Positions 935 through 25,605 of a DNA stretch of 51,842 bases are shown one piece after another. The DNA is from an uncultured Alphaproteobacteria bacterium (lineage in GTDB: Bacteria; Pseudomonadota; Alphaproteobacteria; Rhodobacterales; Rhodobacteraceae). Where the stretch lies: NCBI GenBank assembly GCA_902576905.1, contig CACGWW010000010.1, positions 1 through 51,842 of the forward strand, written 5' to 3'. Numbering within the stretch: the stretch's first letter is position 1; each line of letters opens with the position of its first letter. Made by a program: the position numbers and the translations under genes. Under the pieces are notes generated by a model. It did not search any database and was not told the origin of the DNA. It saw only the letters and a list, made by a program, of their open reading frames with translations.

Positions 935-2043
935 AAATTTTAATTATCACAGATGCGTGGTACCCACAAGTCAATGGAGTTGTACAAACACTAACAAAAA
1001 CACGCGATCATTTGGTCCAGATGGGGCATAAAGCTGAACTTATTACCCCTGAATCGTTTCGTACGATTCCTTGTCCAACTTATCCGGAAATTAGACTTTC
1101 AATTTTTCCAGGAAAAAAGATTGCTGAAAAAATTCAGGTGTCTCAACCAGACGCAATTCATATTGCAACTGAGGGGCCGCTTGGTCTGGCTGCCCGGCGT
1201 TACGCAACTTCACATAATTTAGATTTCACAACTGCATTCCACACCCGTTTTCCAGAGTATATACGTTCTAGGACTAAATTGCCGCTTGGAGCTACATACG
1301 CACTCTTGCGTTGGTTTCACAGTCCGGCTAAAAATGTGATGGCACCAACCAACACTGTTATAAGAGACCTAGAAAAATGGCAAATCGGAAACCCTGTATT
1401 GTGGCCGCGAGGGGTTGATCTTACCATTTTTAATCCATGTAACAGAAACGTTAAGAAACCCACTGGAAACATCGAAAAGCTAAACGCGAGTATCGCAAAA
1501 CTGGATAACGCAACGAAACCTGTTTTTATTTATGTTGGGCGAGTAGCTGTTGAGAAAAATCTTAGTGGATTTTTAGATTTGGATCTACCAGGTGAAAAAC
1601 ATGTTGTTGGAGAAGGGCCCGCTCTTAAAACACTGAAGAAAAAATATCCCAAAGTTATTTTTCATGATGCGCATCCAACGGAGAACTTACCGGCATTCTA
1701 CAATCGCGCGGATGTTTTTGTGTTTCCTAGTCGAACAGATACTTTTGGCCTTGTTCTGTTAGAAGCAATGGGTTGCGGTCTGCCTGTAGCAGCTTTTCCA
1801 GTCACGGGTCCAATAGATGTCGTAGGTGAATCTGGTGCAGGCATCTTGGACAATGACTTAAAGAAAGGCTGTCTAGCTGCCCTAAAAATTGACCGAAAAA
1901 TTGTTCGTATGCATGCGGAGAAATTCTCATGGAAGTCGGCAACGGATATATTTTTTAGCCATCTAACCAATGCTCACAAGATTGTAGACAGGTATCAGAT
2001 ATCTAAAAAGCCTTATAAGACCAATTATAGGTTTGGCGCCTGA
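931..2043 (+). CDS. agt: Agt-like glycosyltransferase family 4, glycolipid synthesis, copy 1
   Basis: A GT-B glycosyltransferase of 370 residues. The N-terminal domain begins ITDAWYPQVNGV, typical of the MgtA/Agt group. The C-terminal nucleotide-sugar domain carries FVFPSRTDTFGLVLLEAM, the EX7E-type region, followed by CGLPVAA. In marine alphaproteobacteria, Agt adds sugar or glucuronate to the diacylglycerol released by PlcP and so replaces phospholipids. The GTG start at 931 overlaps the plcP stop by 4 bp, implying translational coupling. Its last 41 bp overlap the 3' end of the convergent acyltransferase gene. A second copy, 338 residues long, lies at 35236-36252. Sugar specificity cannot be read from the sequence. 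Confidence 0.82.
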   Translation: MKILIITDAWYPQVNGVVQTLTKTRDHLVQMGHKAELITPESFRTIPCPTYPEIRLSIFPGKKIAEKIQVSQPDAIHIATEGPLGLAARRYATSHNLDFTTAFHTRFPEYIRSRTKLPLGATYALLRWFHSPAKNVMAPTNTVIRDLEKWQIGNPVLWPRGVDLTIFNPCNRNVKKPTGNIEKLNASIAKLDNATKPVFIYVGRVAVEKNLSGFLDLDLPGEKHVVGEGPALKTLKKKYPKVIFHDAHPTENLPAFYNRADVFVFPSRTDTFGLVLLEAMGCGLPVAAFPVTGPIDVVGESGAGILDNDLKKGCLAALKIDRKIVRMHAEKFSWKSATDIFFSHLTNAHKIVDRYQISKKPYKTNYRFGA

Positions 2044-2845
2044 GATATTCTGTGACCACATTCCGGTTTTCCATTTCAGCTAGTTCGGAACTGTGTATGG
2101 GGGGGCGCATCGTGACCGTTAAATTTGTCCCAATTCTTCTACAAATTTCTCTAAACATCAGAGAATAACCAAGAGTAAAGCTTACTCTTCTTGCAATTTG
2201 AAATAACGCTGAATTACGTCCCTCGAAGAAGAACGGAATAGTAGTTGTGTCAGGCTGCAATGCTAATTTCGCAACAAATGTTTTCCACGGCGCATCACTC
2301 GCAGTCCCAAATATATTTGGCGCCAATGATATGGCACCTGCTGGGAAGATGATAAGTGCTCCGCCATTTCTGAGATGCTCCAACGCTCTGCGACGAGACT
2401 CCATATTTGTTTTAAGCGCAATTTTAGTCTCTGCAAAATCTATTGGCAGAATTTTATCCATTACCGCTGGTGCCTGTCTCAATACCCTGTGGGTAATGAT
2501 TTTATAGTCATGCCGCACCTCGGCCATAATTGAACACAAGGCAAGTCCATCTATGACTCCATATGGATGATTAGCGATGGTCACGACCCGTCCAGTAGAC
2601 GGTATGGATGCCATTATTCCATTTGAAACCTCTCGACTAACATCTAGTTCGATACGCAGTCGGTCAAGTGCATCTGACCAAAAATATTCTGGATTTAGAT
2701 TGTCATTTACATAGTCAAAATACAGTTTTTCTATACGCGGTTGACCCGTTAATTTTTCTAAGTAGCGGATTATTTTGTTGGGAATTACACCCATTTCTCC
2801 GTCGGCGAATGAAAACACAGGGTGTGTCTGACTGCTATTTTGCAA
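2003..2845 (-). CDS. PlsC-like lysophospholipid/glycerolipid acyltransferase
   Basis: An acyltransferase of about 280 residues. Its first block is NHPYGVIDG, the NHX4D catalytic motif (about residues 90-100). A downstream block, IFPAGAIS, resembles the glycerol-binding FPEG block. No clear membrane helices are seen. The start is uncertain. AGGAG at 2854-2858 is only 2 nt from a TTG at 2851 but 8 nt from a TTG at 2845, so the latter is chosen. A Pho-box-like repeat (2904-2921) lies 59 bp upstream in the right orientation. With PlcP-Agt adjacent, a role in phosphate-starvation membrane lipid synthesis, such as acylating glycolipid or aminolipid precursors, is plausible but inferred. The 3' end overlaps agt by 41 bp. 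Confidence 0.78.
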   Translation of the reverse strand: MQNSSQTHPVFSFADGEMGVIPNKIIRYLEKLTGQPRIEKLYFDYVNDNLNPEYFWSDALDRLRIELDVSREVSNGIMASIPSTGRVVTIANHPYGVIDGLALCSIMAEVRHDYKIITHRVLRQAPAVMDKILPIDFAETKIALKTNMESRRRALEHLRNGGALIIFPAGAISLAPNIFGTASDAPWKTFVAKLALQPDTTTIPFFFEGRNSALFQIARRVSFTLGYSLMFREICRRIGTNLTVTMRPPIHSSELAEMENRNVVTEYLRRQTYNWSYKAF

Positions 2846-2903
2846 AATCAATACTCCTAGCCTGTCAAATAGTTAAAAGATGTAACAAATAATTGATGAA
2901 TTT

Positions 2904-2921
2904 ATGAAAAATTAATGACAT
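2904..2921 (-). promoter_or_regulatory. Pho box upstream of the acyltransferase
   Basis: On the minus strand the sequence reads ATGTCAT, TAAT, TTTTCAT: two 7-bp units with starts 11 bp apart, matching the alphaproteobacterial PhoB consensus at 6/7 and 5/7. A possible -10, AATTAT, follows about 9 nt downstream. The site is conserved in module copy B at 4183-4200. Confidence 0.6.
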
Positions 2922-3012
2922 CCACGTGAGTAAGTTCTCAAATTTTGATTGTACTTTTTCAACAAATTTAGATTGAATAATAAAATTATTAACTCAAATG
3001 ATGATTTAAAAA

Positions 3013-3030
3013 TTTTCATCAAATTGTCAT
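3013..3030 (+). promoter_or_regulatory. Pho box driving the candidate small RNA
   Basis: On the plus strand TTTTCAT (3013-3019), CAAA, TTGTCAT (3024-3030) form two units at 11-bp spacing, matching CTGTCAT at 5/7 and 6/7. AACATT/CATTAA around 3039-3046 lies about 10 nt downstream and could be the -10. No large ORF begins before the terminator at 3093-3125. Confidence 0.55.
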
Positions 3031-3051
3031 CAATCTTTAACATTAAAAAGT

Positions 3052-3125
3052 TAGACAATCTGTAAATACACGCATGTATTTCCCTCCCAACTGGGCCGTT
3101 ATAAGCAGACGGCCCTTTTCTTTTT
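3052..3125 (+). ncRNA. candidate phosphate-regulated small RNA
   Basis: A transcript starting about 7 nt after the -10-like sequence near 3041 would be roughly 75 nt long. It would contain a small hairpin AATACA-CGCA-TGTATT (3064-3079 region), a single-stranded pyrimidine-rich stretch TTTCCCTCCC, and a strong intrinsic terminator at 3093-3125. This architecture fits a trans-acting small RNA. Both ends are predicted, and the RNA family is not recognised. It could instead be a leader that terminates before the gene at 3270. Confidence 0.45.
3093..3125 (+). terminator. intrinsic terminator
   Basis: A perfect 7-bp stem, GGGCCGT (3093-3099) with ACGGCCC (3109-3115), closes a 9-nt loop and is followed directly by TTTTCTTTTT. 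No CDS ends upstream on this strand for more than 1 kb, so it should terminate a noncoding transcript. The second module copy has lost one stem arm. Confidence 0.8.
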
Positions 3126-3269
3126 GATACATTGATGTAACAGCTAATCAATATATAAAATTGGACTTTAGAAGCGTGTTGTAAGACTATTTTTAATTTT
3201 TATTTGACTAAATTATTAGTATTGCTAAATTTTGGCGCGATTGAAATTAAATCCTCAAAAGGAAATAAA

Positions 3270-3692
3270 ATGTCGAAGGAAAAAGACGCTGATACCATCA
3301 CTGAATTAGGTGAAGACGGAAAATTACATAATATAACTACTAAAGCAGGAAGACTAGCAATGGAGTTAGCGTCTGAAAAAAAGAGGCTTGCTCAAGAGCT
3401 AGAAGAATTACAAGGCGAGTACGATGACATTAAACCTCTTACGCCTACTGGTACAAGAGATTGGTATGTTAAATGGGGAGCCATGCTATTGTGTGTATTA
3501 GGAGTATTTCTTACATCAGGAAAAATGTATATTTTGGGGCAATTGTGTTATTTCTTTAGTGCCATCGGATGGATATATGTCGGCATGCAATGGAGCGACA
3601 GAGCACTAATGATTGGATCCGCGATATGTGGTACTGCAGTTGCCATGCTGTTGATAGACAATCCCGACTTGTATCTGCTTTTTTCAAGGTGA
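3270..3692 (+). CDS. small membrane protein of unknown function
   Basis: A 140-residue protein not recognised as a characterised family. The first 55 residues are charged and predict a coiled coil (about 28-52, rich in E, K and L). Three hydrophobic segments follow at about 69-85, 88-105 and 110-128. The ATG at 3270 is chosen over an in-frame TTG at 3204 because AAAGGAAATAA precedes it at good spacing. The upstream region carries module copy A with its terminator. An imperfect hairpin, AATACCA/TGGTATT (3701-3718), follows the stop without a T-tract. Confidence 0.65.
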   Translation: MSKEKDADTITELGEDGKLHNITTKAGRLAMELASEKKRLAQELEELQGEYDDIKPLTPTGTRDWYVKWGAMLLCVLGVFLTSGKMYILGQLCYFFSAIGWIYVGMQWSDRALMIGSAICGTAVAMLLIDNPDLYLLFSR

Positions 3693-3770
3693 ATAATCCT
3701 AATACCATCTTTGGTATTGGCAGCATAAAGAAACTCACGACTAGAACGGCAGACTGGACTGAGTTCAAGA

Positions 3771-4124
3771 CTACCCTTTCTTGCTTAAAGGTCTTTTACC
3801 CCTTGCATGAGACATTTCTATAATTTCATTCTTCTCAATTTTTACAAACCCCAAGATCACTCCATCAGGTTCGACATGATCTGGAACCGAGTGTTGGTAA
3901 ACTATAATTTTATCGTTTTCGAAATGACAAGTTATTTTTCCAATATTTGATCTTGGCTGTTCTTCGAACCAGGCGATAGTTTCCGACTTATCACGTTTAT
4001 TTTTTGTAAGACTTGATTGAGTTATTGATCGCCAAAAAAAATTTTCAGACAAATATTTTTTAAGAAGAGATACGTCTCCATTATTTGCGGTTTCAAACAT
4101 TGCTTCAAGTTTCTTAAAATTCAT
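3771..4124 (-). CDS. NTF2/SnoaL-like small protein
   Basis: A 117-residue soluble protein. The pattern resembles the NTF2-like/SnoaL fold: an N-terminal helix (KLEAMFETANNGDVSLLKKYL), a conserved-looking FW pair (about 29-30), then strands around CHFENDKIIVYQ and VILGFVKIEKNEIIEM. Members act as small enzymes or ligand-binding domains, and no activity can be assigned here. AAAGGAGTCGGCT precedes the ATG, a good ribosome binding site. Module copy B, with a Pho-box-like element at 4183-4200, lies directly upstream, so phosphate control is possible. Confidence 0.6.
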   Translation of the reverse strand: MNFKKLEAMFETANNGDVSLLKKYLSENFFWRSITQSSLTKNKRDKSETIAWFEEQPRSNIGKITCHFENDKIIVYQHSVPDHVEPDGVILGFVKIEKNEIIEMSHARGKRPLSKKG

Positions 4125-4159
4125 AGCCGACTCCTTTGCCTTATAAAATGAAAAAAATA

Positions 4160-4400
4160 TGCAACAAATTATTGATGAATTTATGAAAAATTAATGACTT
4201 GTACGTAAGAAAGTTCTCAGATTCTATCTATATTTTTTCAATTAATTTAGATTGAATGAAAATTATTAACTCAAGTGATGGTTTAAAAAATTTTTATCTG
4301 AATGTAATAAATCTTAACATTAATAAGATAGATAATACCCAAACAGTCGCGTGTATTTCCCTTCCCACTGGGCCGTTTTCTTTTTGATACATTAAAGTAA
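4160..4400. repeat. intergenic direct repeat module, copy B
   Basis: Second copy of the module at 2881-3140, with the same block order but more divergence. The minus-strand Pho-box-like element is kept (4183-4200, reading AAGTCAT, TAAT, TTTTCAT). It is followed at 9 nt by AATAAT, a good -10 toward the gene at 3771-4124. The plus-strand box has decayed to TTTTTAT, CTGA, ATGTAAT (4291-4308). The terminator has lost its second arm: GGGCCG runs straight into TTTTCTTTTT. Confidence 0.8.
4183..4200 (-). promoter_or_regulatory. Pho-box-like element upstream of the NTF2-like gene
   Basis: On the minus strand AAGTCAT, TAAT, TTTTCAT are two units 11 bp apart, with AATAAT 9 nt downstream as -10. It is conserved at the same place in module copy A, which argues for selection rather than chance. 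Confidence 0.5.
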
Positions 4401-4521
4401 CTTACCATCTGCTGCTCACTCCAAGAACATGCTACATGAGCATCCCATGCGTCCCATGCGTTGAAAGGCTAGACCAAGCGGTAGCTATAGGTAATGGCAA
4501 AATTATGAATTTTACTCAAAA
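4401..4521. other. intergenic stretch with a less AT-rich patch
   Basis: Between module B and the next gene, roughly 4408-4498 is visibly less AT-rich than its surroundings. It contains a perfect 9-bp tandem duplication, TCCCATGCG twice (4444-4461). Both strands have stops in all longer frames. It looks like a small relic of unknown origin. No RNA fold or gene was recognised. Confidence 0.3.
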
Positions 4522-4743
4522 TTAATGGACAATATCATCTTGCATTTCTTTATCGAGTTCGAAGTAGGCCAACTCTTCTGGAAATCTATCTCCATAAAGA
4601 AATACATATTCATCTGGGTTTTCTTTTTGAAATTTCGAGTAATAATCGCATAAATATTGAAAATACTCCGCCGCAGTACAATACTCTTTGCCTTCATCAA
4701 ACGGCTCGTTATCTAAAACATTTAACAAAAAATAATTTTTCAT
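4522..4743 (-). CDS. small acidic hypothetical protein
   Basis: A 73-residue acidic protein rich in E, D, Y and F (ends EMQDDIVH), not recognised. GAGG lies 8 nt before the ATG at 4743 but only 2 nt before an ATG at 4749, so the internal ATG is chosen. A degenerate Pho-like triplet of 7-bp units on the minus strand (4783-4811) with TATGAT overlapping it may be its promoter. An overlapping 62-codon frame (4512-4700) has a less protein-like composition. Confidence 0.45.
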   Translation of the reverse strand: MKNYFLLNVLDNEPFDEGKEYCTAAEYFQYLCDYYSKFQKENPDEYVFLYGDRFPEELAYFELDKEMQDDIVH

Positions 4744-4782
4744 CAACATTGCCTCGATTTTTTATAAATTGATTTGGTTGAT

Positions 4783-4811
4783 ATCATAAAATTATTACAT
4801 AAATGCGACTA
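4783..4811 (-). promoter_or_regulatory. weak Pho-like repeat
   Basis: Minus-strand units TAGTCGC, ATGTAAT and TTATGAT start 11 bp apart. Matches to CTGTCAT are 3/7, 5/7 and 4/7. TATGAT at 4788-4783 could be a -10 for the gene at 4522-4743. This is weak in such AT-rich DNA. Confidence 0.2.
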
Positions 4812-4890
4812 ACTAAAAAAATAACTTAGCAAGTGATTTCAGCAAGCTCGGTATTTGCAATTATAGAAACGGGGTTTCACGAGAAAGAAT

Positions 4891-5010
4891 ATGGCAGATA
4901 TGATTGTTGGGATATCACAAAAGGTACTAAACAACTATATTGCTGAAAATCCAATAAACAAAGAATTTCAACCTTCTGCTTTGTTAAATTATTTAATAGT
5001 TATTTCTTGA
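4891..5010 (+). CDS. possible 39-residue small ORF
   Basis: ATG at 4891 opens a 39-codon frame (MADMIVGISQKVLN... to TTGAATT) in an otherwise empty 383-bp gap (4750-5132). GAGAAAGAAT precedes the start and is a weak ribosome binding site with short spacing. Composition is protein-like, with no transmembrane segment or known motif. It may be a remnant. The rest of the gap shows nothing recognisable. Confidence 0.2.
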   Translation: MADMIVGISQKVLNNYIAENPINKEFQPSALLNYLIVIS

Positions 5011-5132
5011 ATTAATGTAATACTTCTTCTGCTATAAACTCTTCCATCTTTATTAAAGTTTTCACATAGCCCAAGTCGTTTCCCGTTTATTCTGACAATT
5101 GTTTAGCATCGCAAAAAAGGTTTTTCAAAGGA

Positions 5133-7350: not shown

Positions 7351-7426
7351 ATAAATTCATACTCTTGACTTAAAAGTTTCATATAAATATCCCAAATTTT
7401 TTGTACTCTGTTATTAGGACATTTTT

Positions 7427-8119
7427 ATGACAAATTATTCCAGATACGCAATTTATTTTTCTCCCTATCCAGATACATTTCTCGATAAAGTTGGGTCTCA
7501 ATGGTTAGGCTGGAATCCAAAGAAAGGTAAGATTACCAATCACAAGAAAATAAAAAACCCAAAATTTGTTGACTTAAAGTCTATCACGGAAAAAGCAAGG
7601 ATATATGGTTTGCATGGCACGCTCAAAGCACCATTTGTCCTAAAAGATAAGTATTCATACAATGATCTCATTAGCGATGTGGAATTAATTTCAAAGCGAC
7701 ATAGTAGGTTTATAATCCAAAATCCAGTCTTGAAAAAGCTTGGCCGATTTTATGCTTTAGTCCCTGAAAGAAGCCCTAAGGCACTAAAATCTTTAGCAGA
7801 TGATTGCGTTTTAACTCTAGATAAGTTTAGAGAACCTCCCACATCCACAGAACTAGAAAAAAGAAGAGCTAGTGGACTTGACTTTGAAGAGGAGGAAAAC
7901 TTAAAGAAGTGGGGTTATCCATATGTCTTTAATAGATATAAATTTCACATTACATTAACCGGAGAAATAAGGTTGGGTGAAGAGAAAAATATTCGAGACA
8001 CAATAGAATTAAATTTTCAAGAAGTTATCGGATATCCCTTACCTTTTTTAGATATCTGTCTTTTTGGGCAAAGGGATGATAGGTATTTTTGTGAACTGAA
8101 AAGATTTTCGCTGCTTTAA
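7427..8119 (+). CDS. DUF1045 phosphonate-operon protein, 2H phosphoesterase-like
   Basis: A 230-residue protein of the phosphonate-operon DUF1045 family. The two HxT motifs of the 2H phosphoesterase superfamily are visible: YGLHGTLKAPF (HGT, residues about 66-68) and FHITLTG (HIT, about 176-178). 2H enzymes act on cyclic phosphates and related esters. C-P lyase leaves 5-phosphoribosyl-1,2-cyclic phosphate, normally opened by PhnP, which is absent here. This protein is therefore a candidate for that step, by inference only. It diverges from phnM and ends with a 4-bp convergent overlap with phnN. Confidence 0.85.
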   Translation: MTNYSRYAIYFSPYPDTFLDKVGSQWLGWNPKKGKITNHKKIKNPKFVDLKSITEKARIYGLHGTLKAPFVLKDKYSYNDLISDVELISKRHSRFIIQNPVLKKLGRFYALVPERSPKALKSLADDCVLTLDKFREPPTSTELEKRRASGLDFEEEENLKKWGYPYVFNRYKFHITLTGEIRLGEEKNIRDTIELNFQEVIGYPLPFLDICLFGQRDDRYFCELKRFSLL

Positions 8120-13881: not shown

Positions 13882-13885
13882 TATG

Positions 13886-13914
13886 ATGACATTTATATGA
13901 CAAAAATATGACTA
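13886..13914 (-). promoter_or_regulatory. three-unit Pho box upstream of the Sel1 gene
   Basis: Minus-strand units TAGTCAT, TTGTCAT and ATGTCAT start exactly 11 bp apart, each matching CTGTCAT at 5-6 of 7. CATAAT and TATTAT just downstream are -10-like but overlap the apparent start codon of the Sel1 gene. Confidence 0.8.
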
Positions 13915-15417: not shown

Positions 15418-15446
15418 TTGTAAACTTTTTGTAACATTCTTGTCAT
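15418..15446 (+). promoter_or_regulatory. three-unit Pho box upstream of phnM copy 2
   Basis: Plus-strand units begin at 15418 (TTGTAAA), 15429 (TTGTAAC) and 15440 (TTGTCAT), exactly 11 bp apart. CATAAT at 15444-15449 or TAAATG at 15451-15456 could be the -10, placing the transcript start very near the coding start. Confidence 0.72.
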
Positions 15447-15468
15447 AATTTAAATGTACACGGACACT

Positions 15469-25555: not shown

Positions 25556-25573
25556 CTTACATATTTTTGTCAT
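25556..25573 (+). promoter_or_regulatory. Pho box upstream of gap-arsJ
   Basis: CTTACAT, ATTT, TTGTCAT: two units 11 bp apart, matching CTGTCAT at 5/7 and 6/7, 32 bp before the gap start. The second unit continues into AATTT, as at the phnG and phnM2 boxes. Confidence 0.6.
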
Positions 25574-25605
25574 AATTTTTTTGTAACGTCTATCCGAGGT
25601 CTATT

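Follow-up and report, generated by a model that had tools for sequence, protein, structure and literature searches.

Why should two intergenic regions within one bacterial gene island carry versions of the same sequence module, each preceding a minus-strand gene and each with PhoB-like sites on both strands, and what might such a module do? The window analysed here, the whole stretch of 51,842 nucleotides (51.8 kb), holds two copies of this module, which we call A and B. The island around them includes phosphate genes (for a PstS-type protein, a histidine kinase, an ABC ATPase, PhoU and a response regulator) and phosphonate genes (for a phosphonate-binding protein, an ATPase, PhnG, PhnI and PhnJ). 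The PstS-type protein was detected with PF12849 in place of TIGR00975, a model that is unsuited to this lineage and matched in none of the 22 genomes of the genus. The neighbours of A are genes of the lipid-remodelling type, encoding a phosphoesterase and a glycosyltransferase, to which the names plcP and agt can be given provisionally. The features discussed below are collected in Table 1.

Table 1. Module copies, flanking genes and PhoB-like sites. All PhoB-like scores come from a hand-written matrix for the E. coli PhoB unit.
Feature	Position	Strand	Remarks
Module copy A	2875..3145	.	divergent Pho-like promoters and predicted sRNA gene
Module copy B	4154..4401	.	plus side decayed
Segment with B and NTF2-like gene	3713..5102	.	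1.39 kb, absent in 4 relatives
Acyltransferase gene, putatively served by A	2003..2851	-	PF19576/PF01553
PhoB-like box toward acyltransferase gene	2900..2921	-	score 14.3, second best in window
PhoB-like box toward predicted sRNA	3013..3034	+	score 14.1; overlapping second pair to 3045
Predicted sRNA, ~60 nt	3064..3125	+	fold, model R1 matches; start point inferred
5' hairpin AAAUACA-CGCA-UGUAUUU	3064..3081	+	predicted fold
UUUCCCUCCCAACU, anti-Shine-Dalgarno-like stretch	3079..3092	+	last 11 letters unpaired in fold
Putative Rho-independent terminator	3093..3125	+	conserved terminator pattern
DUF6552 membrane protein gene, downstream of A sRNA	3204..3692	+	PF20189; alternative ATG 3270 by eye
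SnoaL/NTF2-like small protein gene, putatively served by B	3771..4124	-	sub-threshold DUF4440/SnoaL matches only
PhoB-like box toward NTF2-like gene	4179..4200	-	score 13.3
Degraded PhoB-like box of B	4291..4312	+	score 11.6, within noise range
sRNA remnant in B, terminator hairpin deleted	4341..4386	+	alignment; R1 24.2 bits, E 0.405
PhoB-like site >=13.0			before ORF starting 7350, amidohydrolase, phnM-like
PhoB-like site >=13.0			before ORF starting 13026, PhnG
Two overlapping PhoB-like sites >=13.0	13882-13914		before ORF starting 13881, Sel1 repeats
PhoB-like site >=13.0	15429-15450		before ORF starting 15454, amidohydrolase
PhoB-like site >=13.0			before ORF starting 21843, ABC ATPase
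PhoB-like site >=13.0	25556-25577		before ORF starting 25606, GAPDH, of a GAPDH-MFS pair

A duplicated module

A and B form a direct repeat that is about 81% identical. Four ungapped blocks connect them: 2875-2983 with 4154-4262 (83%), 2982-3016 with 4259-4293 (91%), 3037-3100 with 4314-4377 (80%) and 3111-3141 with 4371-4401 (90%). With A as the query, blastn returns B at 81% over query positions 1-226 (E 4.5e-54), so the repeat is not AT-rich noise. A sequence-only reading of this DNA had proposed that a regulatory cassette, with Pho-like sites on either strand, was duplicated here. The repeat and the scored sites support this proposal, and further copies occur in relatives. The gaps of about 30 bp that it gave between each copy and a minus-strand gene fit the ORF starts at 2851 (acyltransferase) and 4124 (SnoaL/NTF2-like), and the Pho-like pairs that it saw pointing at these genes are among the scored sites of both copies. 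It had also described, in each copy, the remains of a pair facing the other way. That holds for B, where the opposite site is degraded, but not for A, where it is intact. What the reading missed is that this second site faces a predicted RNA that ends in a terminator, and that B has lost the terminator. The module is more than a promoter cassette.

PhoB-like sites

Both strands of the whole window were scanned, and 11 PhoB-like sites reached a score of at least 13.0, at nine distinct places, two of which are overlapping pairs. Because the best scores in ten first-order Markov resamplings of the window were 12.5-14.0, a single score is no proof, and the placement of the sites is a stronger argument than their score. 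All 11 precede an ORF or the predicted sRNA; one of them, at 7412-7433, also reaches into the beginning of a divergent ORF. With the same matrix, sites preceding pstS, phnG, the phnM-like gene and the gene of the phosphonate ABC ATPase reach scores from 12.5 to 14.4. Four of the 11 lie inside the modules (2900-2921 minus, 3013-3034 plus, 3024-3045 plus and 4179-4200 minus), and the two divergent sites of A are among the best in the window. The Pho regulon is recognized by at least two 11-bp PhoB units upstream of a transcribed gene, and A carries units that resemble these at both of its divergent sites.

The same sites recur in relatives. Both sites of module A score 13.3-14.3 in all eight A copies; the RNA-facing site alone scores 14.0-14.1 in these eight, 11.6 in all five B copies, and 12.3 in both measured copies of a further type, C, described below, the third C copy being cut off by a contig end.

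A predicted small RNA in copy A

The stretch 3064-3126, to the right of the plus-strand site of A, is predicted to form two hairpins, one at its 5' end and one belonging to the terminator, with an unpaired CCCUCCCAACU between them, at -17.5 kcal/mol, and none of 200 shuffles was equally stable. In the same test a second A copy was matched by 9 of 200 shuffles, a C copy by 7 and a longer stretch from genome G020 by 44. A terminator-like site at 3093-3115 on the plus strand, followed by TTTTCTTTTT, is the only such site found in 2700-5000; shuffles lead to an expectation of 1.0 in that region, so the claim of a terminator rests on conservation. The terminator pattern is present in 9 of the 22 genus genomes, with a count of 0 for the reversed control and of 0 in viral contigs.

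Conservation was also used to judge the other parts of the predicted RNA. Every scored pair of the 5' hairpin is retained across nine distinct aligned copies; covariation is weak, with one pair changed on both sides, a result matched by 280 of 500 shuffles. On these pair counts the 5' hairpin is plausible, not proven. Comparison of the eight A orthologs shows stronger conservation of the RNA than of the preceding linker (p 0.0002), and no such excess over the spacer (p 0.31) or the downstream DNA (p 0.75). In distant copies the Pho box and the 3' half of the RNA are conserved and the linker differs.

Copies in the genus

Full-length A occurs in 8 of the 22 genus genomes, counting the genome from which the window comes, and B in 5; because these genomes are incomplete, the absence of a copy says little. 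Matches of 25-28 nt in G021 and G041 were taken as chance and excluded from the counts. Three further copies (C) lie elsewhere in the genus, two of them preceding bioY, and each shares its contig with an mmgR-type RNA, at distances of about 0.3, 1.4 and 2.2 kb, all within about 2.3 kb. A model, R1, built from 10 module copies, recovered the eight A and three C copies in the genus at E 1.7e-10 or better, 10 of these 11 having been used in building it or being near-identical to those used. Outside the genus, R1 gave no match at E 0.01 among 295 genomes of the family (two of them of the same genus) under stricter filters, and neither blastn nor R1 searches found the module in other genera.

The acyltransferase gene has a close ortholog in 9 of the 22 genomes, split over two frames in one of them, and eight of the nine have A; in G011, the remaining genome, the contig breaks off within the first letters of A. 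An acyltransferase search of a genome contig collection gave 17 loci, seven with the A RNA and ten without it, one of the ten being cut off by a contig end; several same-genus records in this collection are not independent evidence beside the genus genomes.

Probable kinship with alphaR8 RNAs

According to those sections of PMC12559287 that define them, an alphaR8 RNA is recognized by a weak hairpin, a single-stranded UUUCCUCCCU that follows it, and a Rho-independent terminator. The predicted A RNA has this layout, with a weak 5' hairpin, a single-stranded stretch and a Rho-independent terminator. The unpaired 10-mer differs: in place of UUUCCUCCCU, A has UUUCCCUCCCAA, with one extra C. This altered form in A, UUUCCCUCCC, is further eroded in the C copies, which have UUCCCUUC, UUCCCUUA or UUUUCUUCC in the region.

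Rfam at its curated cut-offs matches nothing in the window. From RF00519 the A RNA obtains 21.4 bits over model positions 1-77 (E 0.033 for one genome), below the cut-off of 41 bits, and this score is weak alone because the same search gave matches at E <=1 in 13 of 14 control genomes. Weaker R1 matches in the genus share the order hairpin, UUCCUCCC, ACUGGG, terminator; eight of these matches or their neighbours fit RF00519 (suhB/MmgR) with E values between 0.00013 and 0.011, short of the cut-off, and one genus locus (G005:C51) passes it with 42.1 bits. When the window was searched with a model of 12 mmgR-type RNAs of the genus, from which all Pho copies had been left out, the A RNA was the top match at 21.2 bits (E 0.0082), ahead of a runner-up at 14.3. 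On the A copies this model gives 20.2-26.8 bits, close to what unrelated sequence can reach, since 201 kb of DNA fetched on account of other genes yielded matches of 20.4 and 18.0 bits; two of the C copies score 23.7 and 14.7 bits with it, and the one in G020 is missed at E 1. Local alignment with four mmgR-type RNAs gave the A RNA a score that 2 of 5000 first-order Markov resamplings reached as well.

These results have to be weighed against the idea that the module encodes a Pho-induced sRNA unrelated to alphaR8, whose shared CCUCCC and ACUGGGCC would be convergent or generic to anti-Shine-Dalgarno RNAs. The sub-threshold Rfam score, the altered 10-mer and the similar model scores of unrelated sequence would all fit it. 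We nevertheless judge it unlikely, since the A RNA aligns to the mmgR-type RNAs of the genus as well as several cut-off-passing RF00519 members from other genera do: four such RNAs score 25-42 against genus mmgR, and the A copies 29-37. The C copies, moreover, neighbour mmgR-type RNAs, and the best 45 of 135 terminator entries compared with them are module copies or CCUCCC-bearing RNA-model matches, in a set that includes some near-duplicates and is biased, many of its loci having been fetched by RNA models. From the model scores, the local alignments and the position of the C copies near mmgR-type RNAs, we therefore describe the A RNA as a probable divergent sibling of the alphaR8/MmgR/SisA-D RNAs, its kinship suggested and not proven, and not as an established member. 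Such a sibling would have acquired its PhoB promoter. None of the 12 mmgR-type promoters of the genus has a PhoB-like score of at least 13 (best 11.8), nor does any region upstream of 30 RF00519 matches fetched from other genera, 10 of them over the cut-off (best 11.6).

Other RNA-like elements were seen in the course of these comparisons. A palindrome-like element, TTACGTTAACGTCACGTTA with close variants, recurs in the mmgR-type promoters of the genus (L067-L078, L089-L091). A third alphaR8-like RNA type has CUCCUCCCUUCACUGGGCCG or similar and a terminator, with TTGCAAAAATGCA upstream (L048, L050, L053, L080, L094); in L048 it is flanked by genes of the acyl-CoA dehydrogenase and beta-lactamase families, L050, L080 and L094 look alike, and the genome of the window has this type in L130, around 2330-2400. 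A further conserved RNA-like element in the genus has a terminator after ACCUCCCUGUUG(G)ACU or a like sequence (L081-L084, L086, L087, L095), and elements of this type also occur in other genera of the family (L218, L219, L221, L226, L228, L230-L232).

Neighbouring genes

In A, the terminator lies about 80 nt upstream of the DUF6552 ORF. This position would suit another reading, in which nothing but a divergent Pho promoter was duplicated and the terminator shields the DUF6552 gene or a leader attenuates it; divergent Pho sites would suffice for the minus-strand genes. We consider this improbable. The gene downstream is not constant: it is DUF6552 for A and bioY for two C copies, and the 600 nt that follow B have no ORF of 60 aa on the plus strand. 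Yet the Pho box remains joined to the 5' hairpin and the terminator, and the likeness to mmgR-type RNAs reaches upstream of the terminator.

Small genes of the SnoaL/NTF2-like type, tandem or single, also adjoin the bioY locus (L010 133-1144, L069 163-483); their products have at best about 21% identity to the NTF2-like protein of the window over 60-80 residues.

Decay and history of copy B

The alignment shows the terminator hairpin to be deleted in all five B copies, and the B stretch folds no better than shuffles, 133 of 200 being as stable. B retains its gene-facing Pho site and, judged from these changes, appears to have lost the working RNA. The NTF2-like gene was found only in the same five genomes as B. 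An empty-site comparison shows that the segment carrying both is missing from G005, G006, G009 and G013. From the T run onward, B shares ~64 nt with the C copies at 85-91%, and its gene-facing Pho side is common to A; B thus unites features of A and C. Separately, in G016 the NTF2-like gene beside B is split by a frame break (G016:C23 17538-17887; L186, L187).

Copies at several loci and a segment that is present in some relatives and absent from others could be taken as signs of a mobile element with its own promoters that moves the module, and "mobile" was indeed one label offered by the sequence-only reading. We give this little credence: no transposase-like ORF or terminal repeat was noticed, in the searched genomes the module is confined to one genus, and plasmid, phage and viral collections held no match. 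Sequence comparison makes the duplication plain, and not mobility. There is scarcely any likelihood that the plus strand holds a gene for a peptide of 17 codons, with its ATG at 3074, in place of one for a regulatory RNA, for although the ATG...TGA frame spans the terminator of the A copy in the window and, by eye, is open in other A copies too, no ribosome-binding site is evident by eye before 3074, and the frame is not kept in the C copies or B.

A model for the module

The reading that we favour, and hold to be fairly probable, is that A is a divergent PhoB-dependent promoter pair with a trans-acting anti-Shine-Dalgarno RNA, probably a sibling of alphaR8, and that B is its decayed duplicate. 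Under phosphate starvation, phosphorylated PhoB would activate both promoters of A. The leftward one would drive the acyltransferase gene of a membrane-lipid-remodelling cluster with plcP/agt-like genes, and the rightward one a non-coding RNA of ~60 nt ended by the Rho-independent terminator. Probably helped by Hfq, this trans-acting RNA would pair through its unpaired CCCUCCCAACU with purine-rich ribosome-binding sites and would lower the translation of non-phosphate genes during starvation. The direction of regulation and the kind of target are proposed by analogy with alphaR8 RNAs. As to history, a sibling of MmgR/SisA-D may have come under PhoB control before the module was duplicated, B then keeping the Pho site for the NTF2-like gene and losing the working RNA.

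A search of the genome of the window for targets, with one 11-nt word at no more than one mismatch, yielded no convincing candidate: the four exact non-self matches included none at ribosome sites, and 29 of 49 non-self sites were inspected, 10 of them lying near a start codon, with no theme evident among them. Among the start regions in the window, none stood out as a target. The hfq gene was found in 15 of the 22 genus genomes and not in the genome of the window, which is 77% complete.

More broadly, the locus might represent a PhoB-driven arm of the alphaR8 network, with an MmgR sibling that carries a changed pairing stretch inside a lipid-remodelling/phosphonate island of an open-ocean lineage; we see the chances of this as slightly short of even. 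If it were so, one starvation signal would both switch on phosphate saving and silence other mRNAs, and the paralog set (C, A and the decaying B) would capture the birth of an sRNA, the capture of a promoter and loss within one genus.

Relation to known systems

The alphaR8 RNAs, namely MmgR of Sinorhizobium meliloti, SisA-D of Caulobacter crescentus and the suhB family RF00519, have the same weak 5' hairpin, unpaired UCCC stretch and Rho-independent terminator as the predicted A RNA, which differs from them in the extra C of its 10-mer, in an Rfam score of half the cut-off and in its PhoB-like promoter. Single-copy members of the family are typically linked to an N-formylglutamate amidohydrolase gene; A has genes of the lipid-remodelling type as neighbours. 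The relevant passages of PMC12559287 give the SisA-D sibling copies unrelated promoters, and those of PMC7143759 have MmgR induced by NtrC and repressed by AniA. Several sRNAs of S. meliloti change with phosphate, and Hfq is implicated, in the portion of PMC8829014 that treats them; the term MmgR is absent from the main text of that paper. Among the titles and opening abstracts of the literature covered, none concerned a PhoB-controlled alphaR8 RNA. In the A, B and C copies, a promoter-plus-RNA unit appears to duplicate and decay, with one of two promoters kept.

The closest parallel on the other side of the module is the marine lipid-remodelling cluster, in which, as the pertinent sections of PMC4796936 describe it, plcP stands beside an agt-like glycosyltransferase gene and Pho boxes are present. 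Module A likewise adjoins a phosphoesterase and a glycosyltransferase gene of matching families. Those sections of PMC4796936 mention no small RNA, whereas here the cluster borders a predicted RNA gene together with an acyltransferase gene. If our model is right, a phosphate-controlled sibling beside lipid-remodelling genes would supply a pairing stretch and a promoter that can both be tested, and would tie the alphaR8 family to phosphorus stress in marine bacteria.
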